IMG/VR virus record: IMGVR_UViG_3300045993_000257
Span: 1-36,970 of that record
DNA: 36,970 bases
From: a virus
Direction: 5' to 3' (one strand)
Part shown: one piece after another, positions 19,834-35,594 of the stretch
Position numbering within the stretch: position 1 is the first letter of the stretch
How the letters are laid out: every line of letters starts with the position of its first letter
Translations under genes and position numbers: made by a program
The notes under the pieces: model-generated
The model's database searches: none
Told to the model about the DNA's origin: nothing
Seen by the model: only the letters and a program-made list of their open reading frames with translations

Positions 19834-20514
19834 TTACGCCACCTCGACCATGTAGAGCAGTGGATGATCCGGCGCGACCGCGCCGAGCGCGGCTTCGAGT
19901 TCGGCGATGCGGCTCAGGTATGACTGGCGGGCCAACATCTCGGCGGCGTTGTCTCGATGTGTGACGGGCTGGAGGTGGTCCGGGTTCACGCATGCCGTCA
20001 CCGCACATATGTGGTGGGCTGCCTGACTACCTAGCGGCGATCCATGCTTGACCTCTAGGACGACGCGGTGAAGCTGCTTGTGGCCCTTGCCGAACTTCAT
20101 CCGCGGGTAACCACTCTTCAGGTCGGGCCATATCCAGCAGTCGCCGGTGGTGTCGGCTCTCGCCACTAGCGCAGCGAAGAACAGCTCAGGATCGTGGTCC
20201 TCGTACCCGCGTCGAAGTTCACTCCGCGGGTCGAATGTCGGGCGCATGCGGGTCTCCGTCGGCGGCTTCCGCCGTGCGGCATCCGCGCAGGCGTGTGAGC
20301 AGAACCGGCTCTTCGCCTCGTGAGCGCGGAACTCTGCCCGGCACTGCTCGCATGTCGCGATACGGCGGGTCCGCACGACAGGGGGCGGCTTCGGTGGCCG
20401 GTTCGCTCGCCGGCACGGCTGGCATCGCGCCTGGCCTCGCGGCAGGTTGGCGCCGTCCTTGCGCCACATCATCTGTCCGCAGTCAGCGCACGGCAGGTCG
20501 GGTCGTCTCGGCAT
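19834..20514 (-). CDS. HNH endonuclease with zinc motifs
   Basis: 226 aa, GGGAG before ATG 20514. Residues 1-35 carry CADCGQ and CQPCRR, and residues about 54-80 a second treble-clef-like set (CEQCRAEFRAHEAKSRFCSHAC). Residues about 118-190 form an HNH_3 domain: CWIWPDLKSGYPRM, LHRVVLEVKHG, then AHHICAVTACVNPDHLQPVTHRDN with the HH-N-H pattern. A helical C-terminus follows. It may be a homing-type enzyme or assist packaging as HNH proteins next to terminases do; the HNH_3 type favours a free-standing homing enzyme. Confidence 0.85.
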   Translation of the reverse strand: MPRRPDLPCADCGQMMWRKDGANLPRGQARCQPCRRANRPPKPPPVVRTRRIATCEQCRAEFRAHEAKSRFCSHACADAARRKPPTETRMRPTFDPRSELRRGYEDHDPELFFAALVARADTTGDCWIWPDLKSGYPRMKFGKGHKQLHRVVLEVKHGSPLGSQAAHHICAVTACVNPDHLQPVTHRDNAAEMLARQSYLSRIAELEAALGAVAPDHPLLYMVEVA

Positions 20515-22612: not shown

Positions 22613-22851
22613 GCGGGTTCCTCGTTGTGGGTCTCGCGCTGCTGTGCGGCTCTGTGCGCCTCGTACGCGGCCCGGGGGTCCGAGAGTTCCCACGGCGGGT
22701 CCGCGTCGTCCTGTGGCCCGCTGACGCTCGCCGTAGCCATGTCTGCGGCCCACTGGCTGAGCGCGTCCGCGATGCGCGCCCACTCGGGGTGGCCGTGGGC
22801 GGCGCGGGCGTCGATGATCGCGGCGGCGGCCCGGAGGGTGTCGGGATTCAT
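22609..22851 (-). CDS. Small helical hypothetical protein, 80 aa
   Basis: 80 aa, ATG overlapping the methyltransferase stop (ATGA). Helical N-terminus (DTLRAAAAIIDARAAHG) and acidic, Pro-rich C-terminal half. No family recognised. Confidence 0.7.
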   Translation of the reverse strand: MNPDTLRAAAAIIDARAAHGHPEWARIADALSQWAADMATASVSGPQDDADPPWELSDPRAAYEAHRAAQQRETHNEEPA

Positions 22852-24821
22852 GCGATCAATCCGTCCATGAGTGAGAGCTGTCCGTCCGTCTGCTCTCGTG
22901 GCGGGACGTACTCGCGCCTCGCGGCCTTGGCCTGTTGCTTCGGGTCGCCCGTGCGCCAGGTGGCGAGTCGGCAGTAGTCGGCGCTCATGTCGACGCTCAC
23001 GGCGTGGCGGCCGAGAGCGTGCGCGACGAGGGCGACGGTTCCGGTGCCGCCGAACGGGTCGAGCACGACGGCGGGCCTAGTCGGCGGGGCAGTCGCCCTT
23101 GCATCGGCACTGGTCGTCGCAGCGGTCAGTGCAGTTGCACGCACAGGCTGCACAGTCGTCGCAGGCGTTCCATCCGTCGACGTCGCCGATGCTGTCGGGG
23201 GTCGGTCCGGTGTAGTGGCGGGAATCCATATCGCTCCTTCTTGGGTGCCACAGGCGCACGATTCGCCCGTGATGGCGTGACGTCCGGCTGAGTAGCCGAG
23301 CGTGGATCGCTTCCATGCGGTGTCGTCTCGGCCCATCCGCGACAACTGCTGTGTGGCTGCAAAGTCTTTCTGCTCGACCTCTGGCGCCTCGACGACCGGC
23401 CGTCGTCCCTCGCCGCACGCGGTGCAGATGCCCGAGGGCGACCACCCTTGGATGATGCGGCGCGGGAAAGCCGTAGGGAACGCCGCGAAGTGGTCTATCC
23501 CGAGGTGCTCGGGAACGTGCAGCGGCTCTGTGGGGATCGTCCAGACCGAGCCGGGCCCGTCAGCCTGCGGCGGCCTTCTTTCGCCAGTAGGCGCGGCGGT
23601 CGCTTGCTCGCATGCAGATGCGGCACATTCGGCTTCCGTCGCTTGGCACGACGTAGGTGTTGACGGCGTCGAACTCGTGCCCGTTTCGACAGTGGGTCTT
23701 GGCGGCGTTGATGGATGCCAGTGTCGTTGGTCCTCGCATGAGGTTTTCGCGGACGGTGACGGGCTCGACGTGCCGGACGCAATGCCGGACGCGGCAGAGG
23801 TGGTCGAGGTGGAGCTCGTCGGGCGCGGCTCCGTGCTCGAGCGCGTAGGCGACACGGTGTGCGAGCACTGTCTTGCCGTTGAGCCAGAACTTGCCGTATC
23901 CCTCGGGGGTTCGGCCGGCAGTCCAGAGCCAGCATTCGCCGGACTTGTCGACCTTGATCCAGAACCGTTCGACCCAGTCCACTGCCGCACTCCTGTCAGG
24001 ATTCGTTCGCCTTCGTCAATGGTAAGACTTCCGGTACTTATTGCCGAGAGGACATGCCGCACAACAGATTCGGAGTCGTGCTTGATCTCCCAAACAGACG
24101 ACGGCAACTTGCCGAGCGGGTTCGACGTGTCAAGCGTGTTCGACGGATTCGCCAGCCGAGCCTCACCTAATGCGGCAAGCCCCTGCCAGCGACCACCGGG
24201 CTTGTCTGGCCCTGACTGCTCGCGGATCTCGTCGACCGCGGAGTAGTAGCGCGGCTCCTTCGTGAAGTGAAACCACGTCTCGTGGGAGCGGCGCACTCGA
24301 TCGGTCACCGACTCGGGCAGCCCGTTCGGCTTCGACCAGATCACCTCGGCGCGCAGGATCAGCCCGAGGTCGTCGATGCACCGGATGGCGTAGCGCCACG
24401 GGATGCCGATGAGGGACTTCTCGCGCAGGGCGCCCGGCTCCCACCCATTGCGGCGCATGGCGAAGGTCTGCGGGCGTTGGGTCGGCGTCCGAGAGTCGAC
24501 CACTCGCTCGGTGCGGCTGTCGAGCCCTGCTGTGCGCTGGGCGTACTTGTCGCCCAAGTTGACCCAGATCGACCCGGACGGCTTGAGCACCCGCACCATC
24601 TCGGCAGTCGCAGCGATCAGGGCATCCACGAACTCGGCCTGCGTCGGCTCGTCACCGATCTGCCCCGAATAGTGCTCGCCTCCGTCCTGGTAGGAGCGCA
24701 GCCCGAAGTACGGCGGGGATGTCACGACGAGGTCCACGCTGTCGTCGGCCAGTGGCAGGGTGAGCGCGTTGCCTCGCAGGATCGCGGCGGCGGCCAGGAG
24801 CGTGGCCGGGTCGGGGGTCAT
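22848..24821 (-). CDS. Beta-class DNA methyltransferase interrupted by nested ORFs
   Basis: 657 aa open frame, ATG overlapping the upstream stop. N-terminal catalytic motif IV TSPPY at 34-38, target-recognition region with IPWRYAIRCIDDLGLILRAE, and C-terminal motif I DPFGGTGT near 588, followed by SVDMSADYC; motif IV before motif I marks beta-class N6-adenine or N4-cytosine enzymes. Two stretches are unlike the family: residues about 245-425 and 531-582 are Ser/Thr/Pro/Ala-rich linker-like sequence. In these places another frame encodes an HNH endonuclease and a cysteine-rich protein. Without them the length would be about 425-470 aa, normal for the family. The frame is open throughout, so a full-length enzyme with two odd loops is possible. 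Confidence 0.85.
   Translation of the reverse strand: MTPDPATLLAAAAILRGNALTLPLADDSVDLVVTSPPYFGLRSYQDGGEHYSGQIGDEPTQAEFVDALIAATAEMVRVLKPSGSIWVNLGDKYAQRTAGLDSRTERVVDSRTPTQRPQTFAMRRNGWEPGALREKSLIGIPWRYAIRCIDDLGLILRAEVIWSKPNGLPESVTDRVRRSHETWFHFTKEPRYYSAVDEIREQSGPDKPGGRWQGLAALGEARLANPSNTLDTSNPLGKLPSSVWEIKHDSESVVRHVLSAISTGSLTIDEGERILTGVRQWTGSNGSGSRSTSPANAGSGLPAEPPRDTASSGSTARQCSHTVSPTRSSTEPRPTSSTSTTSAASGIASGTSSPSPSAKTSCEDQRHWHPSTPPRPTVETGTSSTPSTPTSCQATEAECAASACEQATAAPTGERRPPQADGPGSVWTIPTEPLHVPEHLGIDHFAAFPTAFPRRIIQGWSPSGICTACGEGRRPVVEAPEVEQKDFAATQQLSRMGRDDTAWKRSTLGYSAGRHAITGESCACGTQEGAIWIPATTPDRPPTASATSTDGTPATTVQPVRATALTAATTSADARATAPPTRPAVVLDPFGGTGTVALVAHALGRHAVSVDMSADYCRLATWRTGDPKQQAKAARREYVPPREQTDGQLSLMDGLIA
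23077..23229 (-). CDS. Cysteine-rich miniprotein nested in methyltransferase gene
   Basis: 50 aa in the frame offset by two bases from the methyltransferase. AAGGAG lies four bases before ATG 23229. The C-terminal half has ten cysteines in about 25 residues, in C-x2-C-x2-C-x-C-x-C-x3-C-x3-C-x-C-x3-C spacing (CDDCAACACNC, then CRCKGDC). Such density is hard to get as a shadow and suggests a metal-binding, metallothionein-like protein. The methyltransferase frame here reads as Ala/Thr/Pro linker. Function unknown. Confidence 0.6.
   Translation of the reverse strand: MDSRHYTGPTPDSIGDVDGWNACDDCAACACNCTDRCDDQCRCKGDCPAD
23560..23982 (-). CDS. HNH homing-type endonuclease nested in methyltransferase gene
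   Basis: 140 aa, GTG start with AGGAG seven bases upstream, in a frame offset by two bases from the methyltransferase. HNH_3 architecture: CWLWTAGRTPEGYGKFW, VLAHRVAYALEHG, LHLDHLCRVRHCVRHVEPVT (H-H-N type core with cysteines; the usual N is replaced by R/H) and a C-terminal zinc pair (CRNGHEF, CRICMRASDRRAYW). The clear domain proves this is the coding frame here. It resembles a homing endonuclease inserted in a conserved gene. Motifs SVW occur on both sides in the methyltransferase frame, 549 bases apart. Confidence 0.82.
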   Translation of the reverse strand: MDWVERFWIKVDKSGECWLWTAGRTPEGYGKFWLNGKTVLAHRVAYALEHGAAPDELHLDHLCRVRHCVRHVEPVTVRENLMRGPTTLASINAAKTHCRNGHEFDAVNTYVVPSDGSRMCRICMRASDRRAYWRKKAAAG

Positions 24822-27534: not shown

Positions 27535-27889
27535 CCCTGGACCGGGACTCTGCGGACCTCTTGCCACCGAGGGATCCGGCCCGGGACCGCTTCGCGCGCA
27601 GCTCCGCGATCTCGTCCCGGGAGCGCTGGTGCTCGAGGTAGTCGTGCATGTGGACGCCACCGTCCGGGCGGGCCTCGGCGAGGCTGCATAGGAGCTCGGC
27701 GCGCACCTTGGGCGTCTTGCTGCGCTTGAGCCACACAGCCTCTGGCACGTCGCCGTCGGAGGTGCTGCGGGAGCACCAGCACCACAGGTCGATGAGGGCG
27801 CGGAACGCCTTGTCGGACAGCGCCTCGATCTTGTGGTGCTCGGGCATCCCGTCGTGCAGGGTGATGTAGGTGCGGGGGTCACGGGGCAT
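27497..27889 (-). CDS. Replication-type phage protein (N-terminal DNA-binding domain)
   Basis: 130 aa from ATG 27889. Begins PRDPRTYITLHDGMPEHHKI and contains FRALIDLWCWCSRSTSDGDV, VRAELLCSLAEA, VHMHDYLEHQRSRDEIAELR and a basic GGKRSAES tail. This pattern belongs to a common actinophage family with a winged-helix-like N-terminus, usually encoded among replication genes and thought to act at the origin. The frame ends at TAA inside the fifth iteron, whereas the family usually continues with a KQ/SK-rich tail present here in the next frame. Confidence 0.72.
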   Translation of the reverse strand: MPRDPRTYITLHDGMPEHHKIEALSDKAFRALIDLWCWCSRSTSDGDVPEAVWLKRSKTPKVRAELLCSLAEARPDGGVHMHDYLEHQRSRDEIAELRAKRSRAGSLGGKRSAESRSRDARIDAEGQASA

Positions 27890-28418
27890 CGTCACCAGCC
27901 ACGATCTGTTCCGCGATCTCACGCATGGCGCGGATGCGCTTCCAGCAGATGCCGGCGAAGTAGGAGCCGCGGTCCTGAATGCCACGAGCCGAAGTGGCGT
28001 AGAGGGCGGCGTCGACCATGACCGACTCAGGCAAACCCATCTGGTAGAACCGGGCGACCGAATGCTCAAGCGTCGGCGGGAGGTATCGCATCCCCCAGAC
28101 GCTCAGGAACGCACCGAGGTACTGGTCGGACTCGCTGGCCTTTGCCTCGAGGATGGCGGCGGCCTGTTGCATCGCAGACGACCAACGCACAGCATCGTCG
28201 TGAATGTCTGCGACGGTCTCAGCGTCGAGTGTCGAACTCGCCTTGCCGGCGTTGCAGTCCTGGCAGGCGGCGACGAGGTTTCCCGGGTCGTCGGTGCCGC
28301 CGAGCGTGACTGGTGTGACGTGGTCGACGCGAAGGGGGTTGTCCACACTTCGGCAGTAGCGGCAGGTGTAGTTGTCACGCCGCAGAACCTCGAATCGGGT
28401 GCGCTTGCTCACGGCCAT
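27879..28418 (-). CDS. HNH endonuclease with helical C-terminal domain
   Basis: 179 aa; ATG overlaps the upstream TGA by one base. Classic HNH: FEVLRRDNYTCRYCRS, LRVDHVTPVTLGGTDDPGNL, VAACQDCNAGKAS, with both zinc Cys pairs. The rest (about 65-179) is helical with YLGAFLSVWGMRYLPP and SYFAGICWKRIRAM, a fusion seen in actinophage early regions next to the replication-type gene. Not the homing-type HNH_3 class; a role in DNA metabolism is possible. Confidence 0.85.
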   Translation of the reverse strand: MAVSKRTRFEVLRRDNYTCRYCRSVDNPLRVDHVTPVTLGGTDDPGNLVAACQDCNAGKASSTLDAETVADIHDDAVRWSSAMQQAAAILEAKASESDQYLGAFLSVWGMRYLPPTLEHSVARFYQMGLPESVMVDAALYATSARGIQDRGSYFAGICWKRIRAMREIAEQIVAGDDAP

Positions 28419-28765
28419 CACGTCACCTCGACGAGGGTCAGTTGTCCGTGGGTCTGCTCGTGGTCGTGGTGCCGCTCGAACGTGGCCTGACCCGGGAGGC
28501 TCTTGTTCGTCCTCGCGTAGACGATGACGCGGCGTCCCTTGCCGGCCGGGTGGGTCGTGGGGATGGTGAACGTGTGGAAGACGCCCGCGATCTTGCCTCC
28601 CAGCGGGACGAGATAGCCGTCGTCGACTGCGTGCTCGTGGGCGGCGCCACGCTCGGCGCTGGTGAGTTGGGCGAGGTCGGCCTCGGCCCGCCACAGGTCG
28701 ATCGTGACCGTCTCGCCGGGGGTGGTGCGGTAGAGCGCGGCCAGGAGGGTGCCGTAGGCGCTCAC
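28418..28765 (-). CDS. Hypothetical early protein, 115 aa
   Basis: 115 aa from GTG 28765 (GTGA overlap). N-terminal helix-turn-helix-like segment (GTLLAALYRTTPGETVTI, ADLAQLTSAERGAAHEHAVD), then beta strands (RRVIVYARTNKSL) and a His-rich end. It may be a small winged-helix protein. No firm family. Confidence 0.68.
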   Translation of the reverse strand: MSAYGTLLAALYRTTPGETVTIDLWRAEADLAQLTSAERGAAHEHAVDDGYLVPLGGKIAGVFHTFTIPTTHPAGKGRRVIVYARTNKSLPGQATFERHHDHEQTHGQLTLVEVT

Positions 28766-29469
28766 GATGCGTCCTCGGCTGCGCGCTGGGCCTTCCACGC
28801 CTCGAGCGACAGGACAACGTCGCGGCCCTCGGCCTCGGTAAGCTCGGAGCGTGAGGCGATGGTGCGGCCGATGACACCGTTGATGCCCTTGAGCTGCTCG
28901 TCACGGTCCGTGACACCGAGCTCGGTGAAGAGTGCGAAGAGGTGGCCGCGGGTCTTGGCGCTCATCGGGTCGCCGCCGTCCACGTCGCCGGGCTTCTCAG
29001 CCTCGACGGCCTTGGGCTTGGCGCGGCTCATGCGGCGGGTCGGCTGCTCGGCCGGCTGCTCGGCTGGTGCGCTCGTGGTGAGGCTGCCGGCGTTCGCAGC
29101 CTGCGCGAACTCGACCAAGTTCTCCTTGGCCCACAGGTCGAGCGCGACACCGAAGCGCATCGCGGCGTTGCGGATCGCGTCACCGATGGCCTCCTTGGCG
29201 TTCTTGCCGTCGCCGACGCCGAGGCGGGTCACGCCGCAGATGGTGAGGCGAATCCACAGGTTGCCCGACTTGTCGAGCGCGGGCAGGCCCACGTCGTCGA
29301 GGGCCAGGGGCTCCCACGACCACTGCGGGTCGACGGTCAGGAGCCGGTCGGTAACCGCGGCGTGTCCGACGTAGTCGAGCATCGCGCCACCCTTGGGGAG
29401 TTTGCCGATCGACTCCTTGGGGAACGGCTTGCGGAGGGCCGTGGCCTTCTCCGGGGTGAGGTCGCTCAT
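28762..29469 (-). CDS. Single-strand annealing protein, Rad52/Erf-like
   Basis: 235 aa. The core (GGAMLDYVGHAAVTDRLL, DPQWSWEPLA, LWIRLTICGVTRLGVGDG, KEAIGDAIRNAAMRFGVALD) matches the Rad52/Erf/Sak-type recombinase pattern of actinophages, which anneals complementary single strands. A Pro/Glu-rich linker (about 130-165) leads to a helical C-terminal domain. It is encoded beside a Cas4/RecB-like nuclease, as expected for a phage recombination pair. Confidence 0.8.
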   Translation of the reverse strand: MSDLTPEKATALRKPFPKESIGKLPKGGAMLDYVGHAAVTDRLLTVDPQWSWEPLALDDVGLPALDKSGNLWIRLTICGVTRLGVGDGKNAKEAIGDAIRNAAMRFGVALDLWAKENLVEFAQAANAGSLTTSAPAEQPAEQPTRRMSRAKPKAVEAEKPGDVDGGDPMSAKTRGHLFALFTELGVTDRDEQLKGINGVIGRTIASRSELTEAEGRDVVLSLEAWKAQRAAEDAS

Positions 29470-33876: not shown

Positions 33877-34254
33877 GTGTCGCGCGCCCGATCCGTTTCC
33901 CGTACCCGAACCGCTGTCATCCGGACTTCGCTGACCCTCGCCGTGGTCGCCGTGGTCGCGGCCCTGTGGCGATGGCACGACCTCGGGTCGCCGGCCGGGG
34001 GTGACGCCATGTTCATCATGTCGCTGGCCGTGTCGGTGGCTGCTGCGATCATCTGCGCCCAGTCCGTCGTCATGCCCGACCAGGCGCGGCTGTACGCGCT
34101 CGGGTGGCGCGACCGGGACAGGGAGTGCGGCTGCACCACCGAAGCGGCGGTAGAGAGCCCCCCCCCCCCCGATCTTCGCGTGGTCGGCGACGACCTAGCC
34201 GAGGCGCGTGCACGGCACCCGTCCGCCCTCGGCGCGCGGCGCCTGCGAGGCTAG
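33877..34254 (+). CDS. Two-helix membrane protein with poly-C tract
   Basis: 125 aa from GTG 33877 (AAGGGGG four bases upstream). Basic N-terminus, membrane segments at about 16-34 (LTLAVVAVVAALW) and 45-66 (MFIMSLAVSVAAAIICAQSV), then a cytoplasmic tail containing four prolines encoded by a C13 run. Expressed with the repressor and convergent with integrase, a usual place for superinfection-exclusion or immunity genes. Its TAG shares the palindrome CTAG with the integrase stop. Confidence 0.68.
   Translation: MSRARSVSRTRTAVIRTSLTLAVVAVVAALWRWHDLGSPAGGDAMFIMSLAVSVAAAIICAQSVVMPDQARLYALGWRDRDRECGCTTEAAVESPPPPDLRVVGDDLAEARARHPSALGARRLRG
34158..34170 (+). repeat. C13 homopolymer inside a coding sequence
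   Basis: Thirteen consecutive C in the C-terminal part of the membrane protein gene. Such tracts are prone to slippage; gain or loss of one base would replace the last 27 residues. Confidence 0.9.
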
Positions 34255-35510
34255 ACCAGCTCGCCCATCACGACGGGTCCGGCGATCTGCGCTCCCCCGT
34301 CACGGCGCGCGGCGAGGTTGTCGAGCACGTCGTCGGTCACGCCCTCGATCAGCTTGCCGTAGGTTCCGAAGGTCGTCGCGAAGTTCTCGTGCCCTAGGCG
34401 GGTGCGGATCTGCGGCAGGGTCGCCCCGGCACGCAGCAGGTCCGCGACGTGCAGGTGACGCAGCCCGTGCGGCTTCGGTGCCGGGTGCAGGTTCGCCACC
34501 TCGCACGCCTTCACCCACTGCCTGCTGCGCCAGTTGTTGTAGAGCATCGGCCCGCCACGGGGTGCGGTGAACAGGTAGTCACCCGGCCGCATCATCCCGA
34601 GGCGGCGCCGGATCATCGACGTGCACTGCGCGTCGACCTTGACGTTTCGGAACCCCGCCTCGGACTTGGTGTCGGCCACCCGCACCACCTTGGACCCAGC
34701 CTCGCGCCGCATGACGTTCGCGATGATGAGGGTGACCTTGTCGCCACCGCGGTCGTCGACGTCGTAGGTGGTGAGCGCGGTGACCTCGGAGTAGCGCGCC
34801 CCGGTCGAGTAGAGGGTGAGCGCGAGGTCGGCGCCGTCCTGGTCGATCTGCACTAGCGCAGCGTGCAGCGCGGCCCACTCGGCGGGGCGGACGGGCACAG
34901 GCGGGCGCTTGTGCTGGCGGGGCAGCTCGGTGTCGCTGCAGGGGTTGGCGGTGATGTACCGGCGTGGGGGCTTCGCAGCGAACGCCATGATCGTGAACAG
35001 CAGCGCGTGCCGGTCGCCGATGCTCTTGGCGCTGAGCGGCTGGGTGTGCGCGTCAGCCCCGCTGCCGATGACCCGGGCGGCGACGGTGCCGGCGCTCATC
35101 CCGTCGACCCACCGCTGCACCGCGTCGTCGGTGATGGTGTCGACGTGCTCGCGGCCGAAGGTGGGGGCGATCGCCTTGCGGTAGTCGCGCCCGTAGTCCT
35201 CGACGGTGCGGCTCGAGCGGACCCGGCGCGCGGTCCAGGCGGCGAACTCCTCGAACACGGAGTCGAGCCGGGGCGTGGTGGAGGTGGCGTTGGCGGTCTT
35301 GTCGTTGAGACGCCGCTCGGCGTCCAGCGCACCGAAGTCGCGGACGTCGGCGCAGAAGTCGTCGGCGTCGCGGCGGGTGGTGAACGTCTCCGAGGTGTAG
35401 ACCACATCCGTGCCTCGGCCGCGCCGGTAGCGGACCTTCCACGTCACCTCGCCGTTGCGGGATTCGTAGCGTTTCGGGGTGGGCATCGCACGTCTCGGCA
35501 TGGCTCCCAT
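34251..35510 (-). CDS. int: Tyrosine-family integrase
   Basis: 419 aa from ATG 35510, chosen because GAAGGAG lies five bases upstream; the frame is open further but unsupported. N-terminal arm-binding domain (about 10-60), core-binding domain (about 85-185, VFEEFAAWTARRVRSSRTVE), and catalytic domain with R239 (STGARYSEV), K in ADTKSEAG, H348-R351 (HGLRHLH), H374 (LGHENF) and nucleophile Y384 (TYGK). All catalytic positions are present. It is adjacent to attP and reads away from it. Confidence 0.95.
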   Translation of the reverse strand: MGAMPRRAMPTPKRYESRNGEVTWKVRYRRGRGTDVVYTSETFTTRRDADDFCADVRDFGALDAERRLNDKTANATSTTPRLDSVFEEFAAWTARRVRSSRTVEDYGRDYRKAIAPTFGREHVDTITDDAVQRWVDGMSAGTVAARVIGSGADAHTQPLSAKSIGDRHALLFTIMAFAAKPPRRYITANPCSDTELPRQHKRPPVPVRPAEWAALHAALVQIDQDGADLALTLYSTGARYSEVTALTTYDVDDRGGDKVTLIIANVMRREAGSKVVRVADTKSEAGFRNVKVDAQCTSMIRRRLGMMRPGDYLFTAPRGGPMLYNNWRSRQWVKACEVANLHPAPKPHGLRHLHVADLLRAGATLPQIRTRLGHENFATTFGTYGKLIEGVTDDVLDNLAARRDGGAQIAGPVVMGELV

Positions 35511-35525
35511 TGTGCTCCTTCGTAG

Positions 35526-35539
35526 GGGTACACGTACCC
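35526..35539. promoter_or_regulatory. Palindrome upstream of integrase
   Basis: GGGTAC-AC-GTACCC lies six bases from the integrase Shine-Dalgarno, a position suited to an operator or excisionase/integrase site. No clear -10/-35 pair is visible for int. An operator-like half-site TGCCCA is at 35555-35560. Confidence 0.45.
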
Positions 35540-35594
35540 GTAAAACCGAATGTGTGCCCATTTATCCAGATTTGTGAGAGCGGGTAGCACCCCC

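Follow-up and report, generated by a model that had tools for sequence, protein, structure and literature searches.

A nuclease gene nested out of frame in a phage DNA methyltransferase gene: a probable frame-preserving homing-type element

The window, by which we mean the whole 36,970-nt stretch of viral DNA analyzed here, encodes a DNA methyltransferase (MT) whose frame has no stop where it overlaps an HNH_3 nuclease gene, itself read in another phase of the same strand. The segment that carries the nuclease is lacking from most related MTs, and the relatives that have one preserve the MT frame as well. We are fairly confident that the segment is a frame-preserving homing-type element that makes use of neither an intron nor an intein. 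Such an arrangement was published in 2025 for other phages, as the ShiLan domain, in which mycobacteriophage methylases carry an HNH out of frame (Arsenault, Gosselin, Gogarten, Genes 2025, PMC11855218; earlier PMC9957025). The window represents a second, separate lineage, so the ShiLan arrangement has had more than one origin.

The methyltransferase frame and its nested nuclease

The features of the locus, in the order in which the MT is read, are:

22848..24821, minus strand: host gene, DNA methyltransferase (MT; N6_N4_Mtase, phrog_67), 657 codons
24090..24098, minus strand: target motif SVW, 5' copy, which continues as SVWEIK and is decayed relative to SVWxIPTEP
23982..24074, minus strand: leader, MT residues 250-280, a conserved and predicted two-helix hairpin (SESVVRHVLSAISTGSLTIDEGERIL...) with MT third-position bias, present in six relatives
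23990..23994, minus strand: AGGAG, Shine-Dalgarno-like site of the HNH gene, 7 nt before its GTG
23560..23982, minus strand: HNH_3 nuclease gene of 140 aa nested in the MT at +2, starting with GTG (coordinates include its stop codon)
23541..23549, minus strand: target motif, intact 3' copy (SVWTIPTEPL), from which the MT continues
23077..23229, minus strand: candidate second nested ORF (unproven), 50 aa, Cys-rich, in the +2 frame of the MT, with AAGGAG at 23234-23239

The MT matched N6_N4_Mtase in Pfam (E 4e-34) and phrog_67 among the PHROG families, and its TSPPY and DPFGGTGT motifs are intact. The first-pass annotation, made from the sequence alone, had described a continuous 657-codon MT frame (24821-22848) and, two bases out of frame with it, an HNH_3 gene with its own AGGAG and GTG; both are present as claimed. 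The HNH ORF matched HNH_3 with an E value of 7e-8 (32.4 bits against a cut-off of 24.8) and phrog_826 with an E value of 3e-48, and it retains all of the invariant residues H42, H61, H71, C17, C68, C98, C120 and C123. AlphaFold predicted its fold with a mean pLDDT of 95.7. The best, albeit weak, matches of the predicted fold among solved structures were the homing endonucleases I-PpoI and I-HmuI; a search of PDB chains with the HNH profile by sequence gave no match. By codon position, GC content is highest at MT position 3 on either side of the HNH gene (0.87), but within that gene the maximum moves to MT position 2, equivalent to HNH position 3 (0.82). This movement of the peak identifies the HNH frame as the one that codes there.

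Both edges of the insert carry the SVW motif, and the proposed spacing of 549 nt, or 183 codons, proved exact. The start of the insert thus resembles the MT sequence that follows the site, as is also evident in one relative, L007, where the edge motifs are SVWEIPTEP and SVWVVPTEP. Degraded 5' copies (SVWEIK, SVWTID, SVWDIH) are accompanied by an intact 3' copy, as if the latter rebuilt the enzyme. The GTG of the HNH gene lies ~107 nt into the insert, after the hairpin leader, and the stretch before it is indeed AT-richer than its surroundings (GC of 0.53 compared to 0.68 in the N-terminal part of the MT).

An AlphaFold model of the complete MT frame contains a confident MT core, the helical hairpin and a disordered region where the frame overlaps the HNH gene (pLDDT ~33). 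The proposal that residues W244-W427 are Ser/Thr/Pro-rich filler therefore holds for the MT-frame shadow of the HNH gene, which is Ser/Thr/Pro/Ala-rich and predicted to be disordered, and fails for residues 250-280, which form the conserved hairpin.

The location of the site within a conserved motif, a preferred setting for introns and inteins, and the duplication of an MT motif at the edges would also agree with removal of the segment by an intron or intein of undescribed type. However, no group I or group II intron or other known RNA in the window matched Rfam at the gathering score (an undescribed type is possible), and no intein splicing domain was matched by Pfam in the MT frame, the HNH-overlap region of which is predicted to be disordered. 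Moreover, the MT frame is kept open and is compositionally tuned, as detailed below, and removal of the segment would make this tuning pointless. The authors of the ShiLan study likewise rejected an intron or intein for their case (PMC11855218). We regard this explanation as extremely improbable.

Empty, occupied and apparently decayed sites among relatives

We aligned the MT with related MTs and searched for empty sites. Uninterrupted sites were found in most relatives, ~50 fetched with the N-terminal part of the MT and ~75 fetched with an MT alignment, some contigs being in both sets; they read ...NPLGKLPGSVWxIPTEPLxVPxxLGVDHFAAFP.... Because these relatives read through the site without the segment, residues 245-425 of the window protein do not represent conserved MT sequence. 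A loop between DEIR and SVW that varies naturally in length (7-57 aa, median 39) ends at this site, which helps to explain how the MT protein could tolerate an insert.

Three relatives (L007, L065 and L221) carry an HNH gene at the same site as the window, and a fourth, L046, carries one within this loop, just upstream of SVW, with neither the leader nor a clear target duplication. In 5/5 loci, the window included, the HNH gene is in the +2 frame, the insert length is divisible by three and no stop interrupts the MT frame; as four of the five share one site and the leader and may descend from a single insertion, these cases are not independent. The distribution of nested HNH genes among related MTs is patchy, and none of the relatives examined has an MT of the window's family that is broken out of frame by an HNH gene. 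The HNH proteins of the window and L046 are 66% identical, whereas their MTs are 41-49% identical, which suggests movement between MT genes.

The L065 locus contains a broken HNH gene, with a TAG where its relatives encode Trp, within an MT frame that remains open; the TAG could be a sequence error. Two further loci, L206 and L158, are leader-only forms situated between duplicated target-like motifs. Judged from their sequences, the loci look like stages of gain and loss: empty sites (most relatives), an intact nuclease (window, L007 and L221), a broken nuclease (L065) and the leader alone (L206 and L158). The leader-only forms could also precede the HNH gene instead of being its scars. The central claim of the first-pass annotation, an insert of length divisible by three and free of stops that carries a mobile-type nuclease and, involving no known intron or intein, leaves the MT readable, is thus borne out by the empty sites in most relatives, by the four occupied relatives that keep the frame and by the broken nuclease within an open MT, and further by the avoidance of stops and charge in the nested genes described below.

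A domesticated, vertically inherited insert, that is, a stable part of the MT that serves the phage (for example, against competing phages) and is not mobile, would fit the similar identities of L007 and L065 (~65% for the HNH proteins and 57-65% for the MTs), as would result from common descent. Most relatives, however, have no HNH gene, the window and L046 nucleases resemble each other more than their MTs do while occupying different places, and the broken and leader-only stages fit a cycle of gain and loss. Thus, we deem domestication unlikely and favor a mobile, frame-preserving element.

The leader SESVVRHVLSAISTGSLTIDEGERIL is conserved together with an HNH gene in L007, L065 and L221. 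It is also found in the absence of any HNH gene in L206, at the same site, and in L158 and L063, at another site between HEQWF and HETAF; none of the remaining loci examined contains it. The differences between the L007 and window leaders fall mostly at MT third positions (8/7/21), indicating that the leader is under selection as protein in the MT frame. Among closer pairs, the differences between the HNH genes fall mostly at HNH third positions. AlphaFold placed leader helices at residues 250-262 and 268-280, with block pLDDT values of 73-86. The leader may at best weakly be assigned as a SHOCT-like hairpin, from matches to PF22746 in relatives that stay below the cut-off (best 23.8 bits against 27, in L063, 3e-5); the window's own copy gave no match. 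A search for the leader peptide in phage records returned no match, and 395 genomes of one bacterial class yielded weak matches in unrelated proteins, one of them SHOCT-like and none in an MT. A degenerate DNA pattern for the leader, run against viral contigs, matched only L007 and L063.

A programmed frameshift near the end of the leader, yielding an MT-leader-HNH fusion guided to its target by the DNA binding of the MT, would likewise account for two features: the leader is conserved in the MT phase as far as the HNH start, and the relative frame of the HNH gene is constant. Against this reading, Shine-Dalgarno-like sites are present at the HNH starts in several loci, the leader ends without a visible shared slippery sequence, the start positions differ and L046 has no leader. 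We therefore consider a frameshift very improbable and a separately initiated nuclease the better account.

Two sets of candidate carriers were discarded. The MTs of the Gordonia phages Utz and Vasanti, which match only to residue 207, are 333-352 codons long, too short for the insert. At L075, L134, L139, L142 and other loci where a frame overlapping an HNH gene is open, the long frames could not be read as a single flanking gene, and we took their openness as chance.

Other inserts were seen in the MT family. The contig that bears L065 encodes a second MT of the family (L205, 3001-4511) with an in-frame intein-like start (CVDTDTEMLTSRGWLRWDEVKVGD...) after DHFA; a single genome thus has an intein-like insert and a nested HNH gene in two MT paralogues. 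L016, L026, L053 and L056-L058 contain a different in-frame extra segment in another loop of the MT, between GRRP and the CAC motif, and the family accordingly tolerates inserts at several places. In the Actinokineospora contig L051 (~2206-2359), the MT frame changes between the CAC region and DPFGGTGT, probably marking a broken MT copy.

Nested genes avoid stops and charge in the MT frame

A plain interruption, in which the HNH gene killed or split the MT and the frame is open merely because the genome is GC-rich, is compatible with the GC content of 0.69 and with the third frame, which is also open across the window HNH gene, so that all three frames are open there. For each HNH protein, we computed the chance of a stop-free MT frame under the codon usage of the MT that contains it (for the window, of the window's own genes). 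This chance was 0.05 for the window, <0.001 for L046, the MT of which lies in DNA of 56% GC, and 0.01, 0.01 and 0.008 for the other three loci; with the codon usage of the nested genes themselves, which is very conservative, it was 0.04-0.35 each. Hence, the open frame in the window alone is only mildly unusual (P about 0.05), and the open frames across the relatives are far from chance. In other HNH relatives, the same frame was open in 1/79 and ~6/77.

We also compared the codons of the five nested HNH genes with those of 36 free-standing relatives of similar GC content. G-ending codons were less frequent in the nested genes (0.19 compared to 0.31) and C-ending codons more frequent (0.53 compared to 0.41). 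The MT-frame shadow of the nested genes contained no stops, compared to 3.5 in the free-standing genes, and its Arg+Lys fraction was 0.06 rather than 0.15, its net charge per residue −0.02 rather than +0.12 and its Ser/Thr/Pro/Ala fraction 0.56 rather than 0.46. For stops, charge and G-ending codons, the p-values did not exceed 0.001, although these overstate independence as the five nested genes are partly related. By avoiding G-ending codons, the nested genes thus acquire a shadow without stops and almost without net charge, as would be expected if the MT frame is truly translated and its product must stay soluble.

This avoidance, relative to free-standing HNH genes, argues against a plain interruption, as do the preservation of length and frame in all five loci, including the less GC-rich L046, the selection on the leader in the MT frame and the intact MT motifs downstream. 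We judge a plain interruption to be improbable.

Known systems and a proposed mechanism

In the ShiLan domain, the HNH gene occupies the third frame of a stop-free methylase frame, the first 11 residues of the insert resemble those after the site, and the GTG lies 18 bp into the insert, with no ribosome-binding site detected and leaderless initiation proposed (PMC11855218). Our re-reading of one such case, Mantra gp64, located EPVVVARKP and EPIVVARKP 202 codons apart, with the HNH gene at +2. The two systems share an insert in a phage DNA methylase, a stop-free host frame, a +2 HNH gene, copies of a target motif at the edges, a patchy distribution and no detectable intron or intein. They differ in the methylase (the window MT has weak BLAST similarity to Mantra gp64, both belonging to the broad phrog_67), in the site (SVWxIPTEP in the window, EPVVVARKP in Mantra gp64) and in the nuclease, as the window HNH has no significant match to that of Mantra gp64 and their best PHROG families are different. 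Unlike ShiLan, the window has a conserved hairpin leader and an AGGAG, and the broken-nuclease and leader-only forms are new here. From these sequence comparisons, the window has a ShiLan-type architecture of separate lineage and does not belong to the ShiLan sequence family. Mantra gp64 (L304, 3908-6232) also contains, close to its start, an in-frame LAGLIDADG insertion; the adjoining gp63 is a relative of the window's MT.

The insertion in Pacc40 gp60 similarly places an out-of-frame HNH-like ORF in a phage methylase whose frame has no stops (PMC11855218), but the methylase and the type of nuclease are not those of the window, and no leader was described there. Free-standing HNH_3/phrog_826 nucleases of actinobacteriophages belong to the same protein family as the window HNH; their location is intergenic, and the frames that overlap them are for the most part closed and carry positive charge. 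In phage Aeh1, the homing nuclease gene mobE resides within the coding gene nrdA without an intron, and host function is kept; in Aeh1, two proteins result from the split host gene, whereas here the host gene is one continuous frame.

From the architecture, the empty and occupied sites, the preservation of frame and stop-free reading, the selection on the leader, the nested codon bias and the apparent decay stages, we infer read-through translation, MT activity, target cleavage and homing, in the following way. With the HNH_3 gene in the +2 frame of the MT, between copies of SVWxIPTEP and preceded by a leader that encodes a hairpin in the MT frame, ribosomes would translate the MT straight through into a 657-aa enzyme, the insert being an extension of a naturally variable loop. 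Within this protein, the insert would comprise the hairpin, ~140 charge-poor, disordered S/T/P/A-rich residues and a restored SVW motif. The HNH protein would be produced separately, from the internal Shine-Dalgarno site and GTG, and would presumably cut insert-free MT alleles, repair of which would copy the element in.

Tentatively, such elements may form a distinct class fitted to the host protein. They would combine a portable hairpin adapter at the entry, a nuclease with codon choices that turn its shadow into a disordered linker free of stops and of net charge, and a target copy that rebuilds the host protein; nuclease loss would leave the hairpin behind as a new piece of the enzyme. To the published cases the present loci add a series from the empty site through intact and broken nucleases to the leader-only form, a statistical sign of host-frame read-through in a shadow without stops or net charge, and a candidate adapter domain. 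They provide a concrete, testable model of one DNA stretch selected in two frames and of a selfish gene that extends a host protein without splicing. They also carry a warning for annotation, since nuclease genes may hide within long open host genes.

The Cys-rich ORF (23229-23077) may be a second nested gene, although this is unproven. Similar to the HNH gene, its GC peak is shifted to MT position 2 (0.84). It is placed between CACG and RPAVVLDPFGGTG, a stretch that is short or variable in length in relatives. No relatives of it were found in phages; a single viral match, to an unrelated low-GC phage gene, was set aside as a chance match. Outside the MT, the window contains two more HNH-family genes, at 19834-20514 (minus strand; phrog_1872/826) and 27879-28916 (minus strand; phrog_14314), and an integrase gene at 34251-35561 (minus strand; phrog_1, E 5e-52), from which the phage is probably temperate.
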